Positions 11,880 to 15,139 of a stretch of DNA of 64,000 nucleotides are shown here, piece after piece. Positions within the stretch are counted from its first letter, which is position 1. Every line of letters starts with the position of its first letter. Origin of the DNA: Pelosinus propionicus DSM 13327. GTDB taxonomy: Bacteria > Bacillota > Negativicutes > DSM-13327. The notes beneath the pieces are model-generated. The model made no database searches. It was not told where the DNA came from and saw nothing but the letters and a program-made list of their open reading frames with translations. The stretch lies in NCBI RefSeq assembly GCF_900114615.1, contig NZ_FOTS01000028.1, forward strand, positions 1-64,000, given 5' to 3'. The position numbers were made by a program, and so were the translations under genes.

Positions 11880-14036
11880 ATGATAGGAGAAACAGCAGGT
11901 AATATAAGGAATTCTGTCGAAAGAAAATTACATATAATGAGTAAGCCTAGTTTCAAATTCTGTGATAGGCAGGTTAAAGCCATGTTTGATAAGGAAGAGA
12001 ATTTTGTAAATCGGGAGTTAAGCTGGCTGAAGTTTAATCATCGGGTGCTGGAAGAAGCAAATGACCCTGAAAAACCTTTGCTGGAACGACTAAAATTTGT
12101 GGCAATTGCCAGTTCTAATTTAGATGAGTTTTTTATGATTCGTGTTGCTGGATTAAAACAGCAAGTTGAAAGTGGAATTGATAAAAAGGATCCTGCAGGC
12201 TTTAATGCGGTCAAGCAGCTTCAATTAGTTAATCAGGCGGTTCGCGAAATGGTACGGCTGCAGTATTGGTATTTAAAGAAGATCCTTGGTGCCATGCAGA
12301 ATCATGACATTTATGTAAGTGATGTTGATAAGTTATCGGTTAGTGGGCGACAGTGGGTAGAAGAGTATTTTTATAGCACGATTTATCCTTTACTTACCCC
12401 GCTAGCAGTAAATGCCAGTCATCCCTTTCCTTTATTGACCAATCGAAGTTTAAATATGGCGGTGCTGTTGAGCAAAGGTAAAGAGGAGCTGCAGACTGCA
12501 ATTCTTCCGGTCCCGAAAGCGTTGCCAAGAGTTATTGAAGTGCCGGATCAAAGTGTAGGCAAACAATTTGTATTATTAGAAGATATTATAAAGAAACATT
12601 GTTCTGAGCTGTTTTGCGGCTACATAATTAAAGATATTGTACCCTTTAGTATTACACGTAATTCTGATTTGTTAGTTGATGGTGAAGGCGCTGAAGACTT
12701 GCTGGCTGAAGTAGAGAAATCCTTGCGTCAGCGTAAAAGGGGTGAAGCAGTGCGGCTGGAAATGGCCAGAACCAATAAATCTTTTTTAAAAGAGTTTTTG
12801 CTAGATACATTTAAGATGGTTGAACAGGATTTGTATGAGGTTGCAGGTCCCATTGATATTTCCTGTTTCATGAAAGTGATAGAACTTCAAGGCTTTGATA
12901 ACCTGCGCTATGAGGCAATTATTCCACAAATTCCATTAGGATTAAAGGATGCAGAGAATTTATTTGATGTGATTCGCGAAAACGATATTTTACTGCATCA
13001 TCCCTATGAATCTTTTATGCCAGTAGTGAACTTTATACGTCAGGCGGCAGTTGATCCTAAGGTATTAGCAATTAAACAAACCTTATACAGGGTAAGCGGT
13101 AATTCTTCCATTGTGCGGGCTTTGGCGCAAGCAGCAGAAAATGGGAAGCAAGTTACTGTTGTAGTAGAGGTGCGAGCTCGCTTTGATGAGGAAAATAATA
13201 TTTTATGGGCTAGGAGATTAGAAGAATCGGGATGTCATGTGATTTATGGACTGCTGGGTTTCAAAGTTCATGGAAAAATGGCATTAATCATTCGTCAGGA
13301 AGAATCTCGTATTAAGAGATATGTACATATGGGAACGGGAAACTATAATGACATTACCGCTCGCATATACTCGGATATGAGCTTGTTTACTGCCAATGAA
13401 AAAATAGGAGCGGATGCTTCGGACTTTTTTAATATGTTATTGGGCTATTCAGAACCTTTATCGTTGAGGAAATTGGTAGTAGCACCTGTTGGCTTACGAG
13501 AAAAAATAAAAGAGCTGATTGATCGGGAAATTGATTTTGCTCAAGAGGGAAAAGGCGGTTATATTATCGCCAAAATGAATTCTTTGCTGGATAAAGAGAT
13601 TATACTTAAACTCTATGAAGCTTCTAGCAAAGGCGTTAAAATTGATCTTATTATTCGTGGAATTTGTGCTCTTAAGCCAGGTATTGAGCACGTGAGTCAA
13701 AATATTAAGGTGCGAAGCATTGTAGGACGATTTTTGGAGCATCATCGTATTTTGTATTTTGCAAATGGAGGCAAGGAGAAGATTTACTTATCTAGTGCAG
13801 ATTGGATGAATCGTAATTTAAGTGAAAGGATTGAATTATTATTTCCGATTGAGAATTCGGAAATAATAGCTCGATTAAAAAATATTCTGCACATTATGCT
13901 GAAAGATAATCGTAAAGCTTATATGATGAAAGGTGATGGCACCTATCGCCGGGTATATCGCCGAGGTAAGATTGTTAATAGTCAGCAGAAATTATATCAA
14001 GAAGCGCAAGAGCGAGCTGGTGATGCAGATTTTTAA
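11880..14036 (+). CDS. ppk: Polyphosphate kinase 1
   Basis: Reversibly polymerises ATP gamma-phosphate into polyphosphate. The N-terminal region begins at FVNRELSWLKFN, followed by the head domain and two PLD-like catalytic domains. The autophosphorylated histidine motif is likely HGKMALI near residue 462, and the second His region YVHMGTGNYND lies near 482. At 718 aa the length is typical. The start is uncertain: ATG 11880 has no clear ribosome-binding site, and in-frame ATGs at 11937 and 11982 are alternatives, the latter closer to conserved sequence. A strong terminator follows directly. It pairs with the divergent ppx. Confidence 0.92.
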   Translation: MIGETAGNIRNSVERKLHIMSKPSFKFCDRQVKAMFDKEENFVNRELSWLKFNHRVLEEANDPEKPLLERLKFVAIASSNLDEFFMIRVAGLKQQVESGIDKKDPAGFNAVKQLQLVNQAVREMVRLQYWYLKKILGAMQNHDIYVSDVDKLSVSGRQWVEEYFYSTIYPLLTPLAVNASHPFPLLTNRSLNMAVLLSKGKEELQTAILPVPKALPRVIEVPDQSVGKQFVLLEDIIKKHCSELFCGYIIKDIVPFSITRNSDLLVDGEGAEDLLAEVEKSLRQRKRGEAVRLEMARTNKSFLKEFLLDTFKMVEQDLYEVAGPIDISCFMKVIELQGFDNLRYEAIIPQIPLGLKDAENLFDVIRENDILLHHPYESFMPVVNFIRQAAVDPKVLAIKQTLYRVSGNSSIVRALAQAAENGKQVTVVVEVRARFDEENNILWARRLEESGCHVIYGLLGFKVHGKMALIIRQEESRIKRYVHMGTGNYNDITARIYSDMSLFTANEKIGADASDFFNMLLGYSEPLSLRKLVVAPVGLREKIKELIDREIDFAQEGKGGYIIAKMNSLLDKEIILKLYEASSKGVKIDLIIRGICALKPGIEHVSQNIKVRSIVGRFLEHHRILYFANGGKEKIYLSSADWMNRNLSERIELLFPIENSEIIARLKNILHIMLKDNRKAYMMKGDGTYRRVYRRGKIVNSQQKLYQEAQERAGDADF

Positions 14037-14074
14037 AAAATAAGGCTTATACTTTCGTATAAGCCTTATTTTCT
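14037..14074 (+). terminator. Terminator of ppk
   Basis: Perfect 16-bp stem (14037-14052 with 14057-14072), tetraloop TTTC, T-tract TTTT. Confidence 0.9.
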
Positions 14075-14088
14075 CTCGATTTTAATAG

Positions 14089-14246
14089 TTATCCCCATAG
14101 TTATGCACAAAAAGATAACAAATGTGGATAACTATGGGGACATTTGTTGATTTTTATTTTCCAATAAGGGCATTTTGTAGCATCACGAGAAATTATCATG
14201 TGGATAAAAGGATGTGGATAAAGTTATCCACATCCTTTTATCCACA
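14089..14246. promoter_or_regulatory. DnaA-box cluster with nested inverted repeats
   Basis: Seven sites match or nearly match the DnaA box TTATCCACA. Perfect boxes: 14123-14131 (minus), 14199-14207 and 14213-14221 (minus), 14224-14232 and 14238-14246 (plus). Near boxes: 14089-14097 (TTATCCCCA) and 14101-14109 (TTATGCACA). The last four perfect boxes form an exact palindrome: 23-bp arms 14199-14221 and 14224-14246 around AG, with boxes 5 nt apart in each arm. A second inverted repeat, 14092-14109 with 14123-14140, has one mismatch in 18. The cluster ends 25 bp before the promoter of the tRNA-Arg/tadA operon. No dnaA or dnaN is in the window, so a replication origin is not established. Confidence 0.85.
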
Positions 14247-14271: not shown

Positions 14272-14301
14272 TTGACTTTATGTATATAACTGTGGTAAGA
14301 T
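14272..14301 (+). promoter_or_regulatory. Sigma-A promoter of the tRNA-Arg/tadA unit
   Basis: TTGACT at 14272-14277, 18-bp spacer, TAAGAT at 14296-14301, about 38 bp before the first tRNA-Arg. Confidence 0.7.
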
Positions 14302-14339: not shown

Positions 14340-14416
14340 GACTCCGTAGCCCAGCTGGATAGAGCGCTTGACTACGAATCAAGAGGTCGCAGGTTCGAAT
14401 CCTGCCGGGGTCACCA
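14340..14416 (+). tRNA. tRNA-Arg (anticodon ACG)
   Basis: Acceptor arms GACTCCG and CGGGGTC (one G-T pair) with encoded ACCA. Anticodon stem CTTGA/TCAAG with loop CTACGAA (ACG). A34 of this tRNA is the classical substrate of TadA, whose gene follows downstream. Confidence 0.95.
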
Positions 14417-14439
14417 TTTTTTGTTGCTAACTATATTTT

Positions 14440-14516
14440 GCGCCCGTAGCTCAGGCGGATAGAGCAACGGTTTCCTAAACCGTGTGCCGGTGGTTCGAGT
14501 CCTCCCGGGCGCACCA
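14440..14516 (+). tRNA. tRNA-Arg (anticodon CCT)
   Basis: Acceptor arms GCGCCCG and CGGGCGC with encoded ACCA. Anticodon stem ACGGT/ACCGT with loop TTCCTAA (CCT). It is spaced 23 nt from the ACG tRNA and 11 nt from tadA. Confidence 0.95.
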
Positions 14517-14527
14517 TTGTATTTTGT

Positions 14528-15019
14528 GTGGTGAACCGGATATTGGATGATCATTATTATATGGGATTAGCATTAGAGGAAGCCCAAAAAGCATATATGA
14601 TTGGTGAAGTGCCAATTGGAGCGGTACTTGTTCTGGATGGTCAGGTAGTGGCAGCAGGACACAATATGCGAGAAAGCTGGTATGATGCTACGGCTCATGC
14701 TGAAATGATTGCAATTCGGGAAGCTTGTCAAAAGCTTAAGCGATGGCGTTTGACGGGACTTACATTATATGTTACGATAGAACCTTGCCCTATGTGTGCT
14801 GGTGCGTTGGTCATGAGCCGTATTGACCGTTTGGTTTATGGTAGTGCAGATGTAAAAGCAGGGGCAATTGAATCGATTTTTAATATAGCGCAAAATGATG
14901 CATTAAATCATTCCATGGTGGTTACATCAGGGATACGAGCTAATGAGTGTGCGCAAATTATGAAAGATTTTTTTAAGCAACGTCGAAAAAAGAATAAAAA
15001 TTCCAATATAGATATCTGA
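14528..15019 (+). CDS. tadA: tRNA-specific adenosine deaminase TadA
   Basis: Deaminates A34 to inosine in tRNA-Arg(ACG), allowing CGN decoding. Zinc-site motifs are visible: AHAEMIAI (His and catalytic Glu) near residue 57 and EPCPMCAGAL (two Cys) near residue 84. It has the extended RNA-binding C-terminus of TadA. Length 163 aa is usual. Start is GTG 14528 or GTG 14531 (TTG 14543 also possible). None has a Shine-Dalgarno sequence, and 14528 begins only 11 nt after the tRNA-Arg 3' CCA, so processing of the tRNA would leave a nearly leaderless mRNA. Co-transcription with the tRNAs is inferred from the absence of an intervening terminator. Confidence 0.92.
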   Translation: MVNRILDDHYYMGLALEEAQKAYMIGEVPIGAVLVLDGQVVAAGHNMRESWYDATAHAEMIAIREACQKLKRWRLTGLTLYVTIEPCPMCAGALVMSRIDRLVYGSADVKAGAIESIFNIAQNDALNHSMVVTSGIRANECAQIMKDFFKQRRKKNKNSNIDI

Positions 15020-15048
15020 GACATGAACAATGAAGTAGATCAGGTCAC

Positions 15049-15139
15049 GGAGAGGTGGCTGAGCTGGTCGAAGGCGCTCGACTCGAAATCGAGTAGGCGG
15101 GAAACTGTCTCGTGGGTTCGAATCCCACCCTCTCCGCCA
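15049..15139 (+). tRNA. tRNA-Ser (anticodon CGA)
   Basis: Acceptor arms GGAGAGG and CCTCTCC with encoded GCCA. Anticodon stem CTCGA/TCGAG with loop CTCGAAA (CGA). Long class II variable arm. It follows tadA by 29 nt, probably in the same transcript. Confidence 0.95.

Follow-up and report, generated by a model that had tools for sequence, protein, structure and literature searches.

A conserved, origin-proximal DnaA-box cluster outside oriC, upstream of the tRNA-Arg/tadA operon of Pelosinus

The stretch analysed here (the window: 64,000 nucleotides of contig NZ_FOTS01000028.1, from the Pelosinus propionicus DSM 13327 genome, G000) contains seven TTATCCACA-type DnaA boxes within 158 bp (14089-14246), five exact and two with one mismatch. 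The cluster is real. It is conserved, lies near the origin of replication though outside oriC, and is most likely a high-affinity reservoir for DnaA, a reading to which we give about an even chance. The kind is already known, as an extra-oriC DnaA-box cluster; the palindromic architecture is new to us, and the function is one that we infer.

Whether chromosomal sites set DnaA availability or nucleotide state outside E. coli is an open question; according to a 2026 review, it is not known whether any regulator of the balance between ATP- and ADP-bound DnaA exists in Bacillus subtilis (PMC13220808). The element described here is single-copy, and two genera, and in part two families, have kept its geometry while its spacers drifted. 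An element so compact is a target for separating titration from conditioning from promoter control, and its co-varying spacers pose the question of selection for symmetry versus palindrome repair.

Anatomy of the cluster

The features of the region are as follows.

14037-14076, + strand: hairpin after ppk resembling a Rho-independent terminator, with arms of 16 bp, a loop of 4 nt and a T-run
14089-14097, + strand: DnaA box 1, TTATCCCCA, one mismatch; exact TTATCCACA in G005 and G006
14101-14109, + strand: DnaA box 2, TTATGCACA, one mismatch; tandem with box 1, 3-bp gap
14123-14131, - strand: DnaA box 3, exact; converges on boxes 1-2 across a 13-bp linker
14141-14198, no strand: AT-rich spacer between the modules, 58 bp, ~70% A+T
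14199-14246, no strand: perfect palindrome, 48 bp (23+2+23), centre AG
14199-14207, - strand: DnaA box 4, exact; invariant in the genus
14213-14221, - strand: DnaA box 5, exact; invariant in the genus
14224-14232, + strand: DnaA box 6, exact; invariant in the genus
14238-14246, + strand: DnaA box 7, exact in the window; decayed in G002, G005 and G006, absent from the sister genus
14272-14301, + strand: promoter of the tRNA-Arg operon, TTGACT-18-TAAGAT with extended -10 TG; similar in all species of the window's family (f1)
14340-14416, + strand: tRNA-Arg(ACG)
14440-14516, + strand: tRNA-Arg(CCT)
14528-15019, + strand: tadA, tRNA adenosine deaminase, ORF of 163 aa

Boxes 1-3 form a three-box module with offsets 0/12/34. 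Beyond it, 67 bp intervene before box 4 (76 bp start to start), and boxes 4-7 make up the palindrome, with gaps of 5, 2 and 5 bp. Boxes 4-5 point left and boxes 6-7 right (<- <- -> ->), giving two diverging pairs whose TTAT ends meet at the centre. An earlier sequence-only reading had described this palindrome, with 23-bp arms and a 2-nt centre, and it is indeed perfect; the box search returned the same five exact and two near matches within 158 bp, and the second, 18-bp inverted repeat with one mismatch that had been noticed is there as well, around a 13-nt loop. The pairing of the palindrome boxes also stands, but the label 'head-to-head' depends on convention, as the boxes point apart. No other perfect inverted repeat in the window (loop 0-4 nt) is as long as the palindrome; the runner-up, with 16-nt arms, is the ppk terminator.

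That terminator begins just after the ppk stop codon at 14036, so that the cluster occupies a pocket between it and a tRNA promoter reading away from the cluster. Judged from this layout, neither adjacent transcription unit should cross the boxes, and the terminator would shield them against upstream transcription; in the alignment, G005 and G006 carry a different hairpin at its place. As a candidate terminator or RNA element the palindrome itself was rejected: no T-run follows it, and the Rfam matches above threshold were to tRNA only, weaker matches in the region being due to chance.

The density of boxes had been called far beyond chance, and this was borne out. Counting exact boxes only, the 5.41-Mb genome (134 contigs) holds 94; the cluster is their densest group, and elsewhere there are never more than two within 160 bp. 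Four simulated 5.4-Mb genomes, generated from an order-3 Markov model of the window, reached a maximum of one exact box per 158 bp, and for 94 exact boxes placed at random the expected number of five-box clusters is ~2e-10. The palindrome is single-copy in each genome of the genus in which it was found, and on this ground a dispersed repeat (REP-like) or a mobile element was rejected.

The three-box module is scarce. In G003, sampled as twenty 20-kb stretches, the tandem pair alone (two mismatches allowed per box) occurs at ~7.5 per million positions, and the full module is absent at all 27 exact-box sites checked in these samples, which split the cluster's own left module in two. Across the phylum a three-box pattern was found in 2 of 398 genomes, a figure that shows rarity only: boxes 1-2 were required to end in ACA, a condition under which even the window went unmatched.

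Conservation of boxes and spacing

Orthologues of tadA, present in 54 of the 60 genomes searched, were used to locate the orthologous locus in relatives. The 158-bp element aligns without gaps among six species of the genus (G000, G001, G002, G003, G005 and G006); G004, in which only the right end is readable and the rest is N, was left out of this comparison. Boxes 3-6 are identical in every pair of the six (36/36 bases), while the 58-bp spacer, constant in length, averages 61% identity and falls to a minimum of 41%. From this disparity the boxes and their spacing are evidently under purifying selection. Box 7 is much less conserved than boxes 3-6. The sequence-only reading had proposed looking for the boxes at the tadA locus of close relatives and comparing their spacing across species; the boxes are present there, and the distances between them are conserved.

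In the sister genus (G008 and G009; the G008 locus was found via the palindrome centre, on a contig ending inside tRNA-Arg(ACG)) the three-box module and boxes 4-6 are kept. Boxes 3 and 4 are 76 bp apart in the six species, 75 in G009 and 74 in G008, and the module offsets of 0/12/34 hold in all eight. Further out, in a second Negativicutes family (f26), five of six genomes have the same module upstream of tRNA-Arg(CCT)/tadA; the palindrome is absent from these genomes. Box 3 is exact in all 13 species with the module. By this comparison the three-box module is common to two families and the palindrome particular to the window's own. In other Negativicutes families, f23 and f24 included, tadA has its tRNA-Ser neighbour and no box cluster; at the tadA locus of most of these families boxes are lacking, which makes the site dispensable in general.

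Elsewhere in the Negativicutes, most genomes of genus g12 in family f11 (e.g. G257, G019, G259-G271) contain a diverging pair of exact boxes 20 nt apart, with unconserved spacers.

Symmetry of the palindrome

The 5-bp spacers between the tandem boxes of the palindrome change in step: they read AAGGA/TCCTT in G000, G001 and G003, AGTGA/TCACT in G002, and AGTAA/TTACT in G005 and G006. Among the six species of the genus three of five spacer pairs are altered on both arms and none is broken. When G009 is added, nine cells are double-sided, compared with 3.7 in shuffles, and none of 500 shuffles scored as high; these are seven related sequences with few independent events, a warning that applies to the shuffle figure also.

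One way to understand such symmetry is to suppose that the palindrome acts as a folded single strand or cruciform, in which a hairpin of 22-23 bp displays double-stranded boxes and recruits DnaA, on the model of the plasmid A-site and the ABC primosome. The predicted fold is stable (with DNA folding, a 22-bp stem at -23.6 kcal/mol, z = -11), and the spacers co-vary on both arms though binding to the boxes needs no symmetric spacers. However, the independent events are few; template switching during replication mends imperfect palindromes and leaves the same pattern without selection; and the symmetry is gone in the sister genus, from both G008 and G009. The ABC primosome, moreover, is known from plasmid systems. 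We consider a hairpin role highly improbable. Selection for a stem and template-switch repair both explain the co-varying spacers, and since two explanations fit and symmetry was lost in the sister genus, nothing further is built on them here.

Map position and the question of an origin

The cluster lies 272 kb from dnaA in G003 and 293 kb in G006 (one contig in each case), 237 kb in G001 and 362 kb in G005, or 4.7-6.8% of the chromosome in these four genomes of the genus, with G001 and G003 taken as circular. In the f26 genome G318, tadA is 380 kb from dnaA. All five genomes have the locus on the arm that lies upstream of dnaA, and in each the direction of tadA transcription is away from oriC. 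No dnaA, dnaN or dnaX was detected in the window by tblastn, which agrees with the sequence-only reading as to dnaA and dnaN; the single full-length dnaA of G000 is on another contig, C90, with box-rich flanks on both sides.

A cluster as dense in boxes as an origin might itself be a second origin of the chromosome, or one half of the original oriC that has been displaced, and an off-site origin was among the options that the earlier reading had listed. The two kinds of locus can adjoin: a Bacillota MAG (L073) has a dnaA-side box cluster directly upstream of tRNA-Arg(CCT)-tadA. Its module, however, has offsets of 0/12/24, which differ from 0/12/34. That reading had also suggested locating dnaA and the GC-skew minimum. 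In G003 the twelve samples to the left of dnaA, which lie on either side of the cluster, all have negative skew, and to the right of dnaA the skew is positive; in the window it is positive on both sides of the cluster. As the skew keeps its sign across the cluster and switches at dnaA only, the cluster is not an origin that shapes the chromosome. Neither a skew switch nor an association with dnaA/dnaN, the marks of an oriC, was found at the cluster. On the skew and the box-rich dnaA region on C90 a second origin was rejected as a candidate, and the origin reading as a whole is barely credible.

A proposed reservoir for DnaA

The closest relatives of the element in kind are the clusters of B. 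subtilis, where six groups of DnaA boxes outside oriC hold back initiation and their removal leads to early initiation (Okumura 2012, as described in PMC5295017 and PMC13220808). The likeness extends to dense consensus boxes in an intergenic promoter region, outside oriC and near it (in four genomes of the genus), in a member of the Bacillota. The Pelosinus element differs in its locus upstream of tRNA-Arg/tadA, in its rigid two-module geometry and in its perfect four-box palindrome, and its function is assigned by analogy. In B. subtilis the regions that bind DnaA most strongly are those with most boxes (PMC4447404). E. coli DnaA in vivo prefers close box pairs, with gaps of 2-3 bp (PMC11317965); boxes 1-2, in tandem with a 3-bp gap, resemble these 'double DnaA box' sites, as does the 2-bp gap at the palindrome centre, though the central pair here is diverging rather than tandem. 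A search of the Pelosinus literature returned no DnaA binding, footprint or replication data.

From the boxes and their conservation we infer that DnaA binds the element and that this affects the timing of initiation. DnaA would assemble on it as a defined nucleoprotein complex with two parts at a fixed distance, one on the three-box module and one on the four-box palindrome with its two diverging pairs; the fixed distance suggests a complex that is more than the sum of independent sites. Because it lies close to oriC, at about 5-8% of the chromosome, the element would be duplicated early after initiation, and the new copy would draw DnaA off oriC, delaying the next initiation. A reservoir doubled soon after initiation is the most economical reading, but it leaves something over: plain titration would call neither for modules set at a fixed distance of 76 bp nor for spacers that are symmetric and co-vary.

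Comparison with DARS and datA

A second perspective supposes that the site conditions DnaA rather than storing it, in the manner of E. coli DARS or datA: the boxes would force contact between neighbours, and bound DnaA would change its nucleotide, by ADP release or by ATP hydrolysis. The left module shares the core topology of DARS1 and DARS2, a tandem pair with a 3-bp gap and a third box that converges on it; in DARS1 the offsets, taken along the reverse strand, are 0/12/26, compared with 0/12/34 here. Both datA and DARS, too, have a fixed geometry and keep their distance from oriC (PMC4585315, PMC5742627), and datA, like this site, adjoins a tRNA operon (PMC10950094).

There are also differences. 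The spacing common to DARS1 and DARS2 (0/12/26) was not found: in 13 of 13 species the opposing box has offset 34, 8 bp beyond its place in DARS, a shift that is not a whole helical turn. The left module thus resembles a DARS core in its sequence layout but is not classed as DARS. The palindrome, which DARS does not have, is diverging, opposite to the orientation of the DARS core (-> -> <-). The element is like datA in being a predicted high-affinity box cluster with conserved spacing, conserved oriC distance and a tRNA operon alongside; its boxes and their orientation differ, and datA sits downstream of its tRNA operon, crossed by read-through, whereas here the operon is transcribed away from the site, not into it. 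Finally, datA and DARS2 require IHF, and B. subtilis is without IHF (PMC13220808). Conditioning of this type is, in our estimate, distinctly unlikely. Of the datA/DARS-like option put forward by the earlier reading, the general kind stands (an extra-oriC cluster that is conserved, as is its distance from oriC); the particular biochemistry is hypothetical.

A broader proposal would combine the two parts of the element in a DARS-like or structure-dependent conditioning of DnaA in the Bacillota, in which the module and the co-varying palindrome alter nucleotide state or load DnaA via the hairpin; we hold this very doubtful. To our knowledge, such control by chromosomal sites is confined to E. coli and related bacteria (DARS, datA), and hairpin loading to plasmids.

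The tRNA-Arg/tadA operon

A third perspective locates the role of the boxes in the operon they precede. DnaA would regulate transcription of tRNA-Arg(ACG)-tRNA-Arg(CCT)-tadA(-tRNA-Ser), coupling decoding capacity to the replication cycle. The element is always directly upstream of the tRNA-Arg/tadA operon, in two families; the promoter, which begins 25 bp past the last box, is conserved in the species of f1; and several B. subtilis clusters, those at ywlC, trmE-noc and ywcI, repress the neighbouring gene (PMC4447404). Moreover, in Paenibacillaceae, which are not close kin, most of seven loci contain a related symmetric array of four boxes that lies 80-180 bp upstream of tadA. On the other side, no box overlaps the promoter, and the boxes do not keep the fixed place from it that a DnaA-regulated promoter would have. 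Box 3 stands 149/150/150/150, 183/183, 240 and 193 bp from the -35 hexamer in the species of f1, and 87-98 bp from it in those of f26, while the distances between boxes are constant; the geometry is accordingly not fixed to the promoter, and the candidate role of a fixed operator is weakened. The control of the tRNA-Arg/tadA promoter that the earlier reading had raised is possible, then, though less so for this variable distance. Since clusters in B. subtilis also repress their neighbours, DnaA may by analogy control the operon, as a main or an additional role; as an explanation of the element it is a real but minor possibility.

In the window, tRNA-Arg(ACG), tRNA-Arg(CCT), tadA and tRNA-Ser(CGA) follow one another in a row (14340-15139), an order conserved in f1 and partly in f26. 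The A34 deaminase gene thus stands next to the gene for its own substrate tRNA, tRNA-Arg(ACG) being the substrate of TadA.

Other box arrays

Among 80 named tadA loci, the eight densest in TTWTNCACA boxes, seven from Paenibacillaceae and L073, all have boxes 81-391 bp upstream of tadA. In five of the seven Paenibacillaceae loci, four boxes with offsets 0/12/29/41 were found, one mismatch allowed per box:

L092:4822-4871: Paenibacillaceae array
L096:4822-4871: Paenibacillaceae array
L108:4832-4881: Paenibacillaceae array
L109:4854-4903: Paenibacillaceae array
L110:4873-4922: Paenibacillaceae array

Like the palindrome, this array consists of two diverging tandem pairs directly upstream of tadA; unlike it (0/14/25/39 in Pelosinus), it has the wider offsets just given, more degenerate boxes, no perfect palindrome and no tRNA between array and tadA. 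The position at tadA may go back to an ancient proximity to oriC, or it may mean that DnaA controls tadA; dnaA was found for four of the Paenibacillaceae loci. The array is followed by a conserved GTTAACAACGAATATTTGTTCG, which resembles a LexA/SOS box. In L073 (1685-8970), dnaN-dnaA is divergent from tRNA-Arg(CCT)-tadA-tRNA-Ser-tRNA-Ser-dnaX and an apparent recR. The boxes between dnaA and the tRNA-Arg/tadA operon are most likely its oriC, and L073 was dropped as a third lineage with an extra-oriC cluster, as dnaA adjoins them.

Within the genus, a four-box tandem array, TGTGGATAA-3-TGTGAATAN-2-TGTGGATTN-1-TGTGGATAA, occurs in four copies in G000 (L198, L201-L203):

C25:351-392: four-box tandem array
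C41:15132-15173: four-box tandem array
C59:132493-132534: four-box tandem array
C133:7875-7916: four-box tandem array

Single copies of the same design are present in G001, G004, G006 and G007, and the genus seems, from this sequence, to have a second class of DnaA-box cluster. A converging pair of exact boxes with a 3-bp gap lies ~52 kb from dnaA in G003 (C1:5328551-5328571) and G001 (C1:109616-109636). Finally, three tandem boxes with 3-bp gaps (TTATCCACA GGG TTATCAACA GAT TTATCCACA) stand beside repeated short motifs at C70:31800-31832 of G000, possibly a plasmid-type replication origin.
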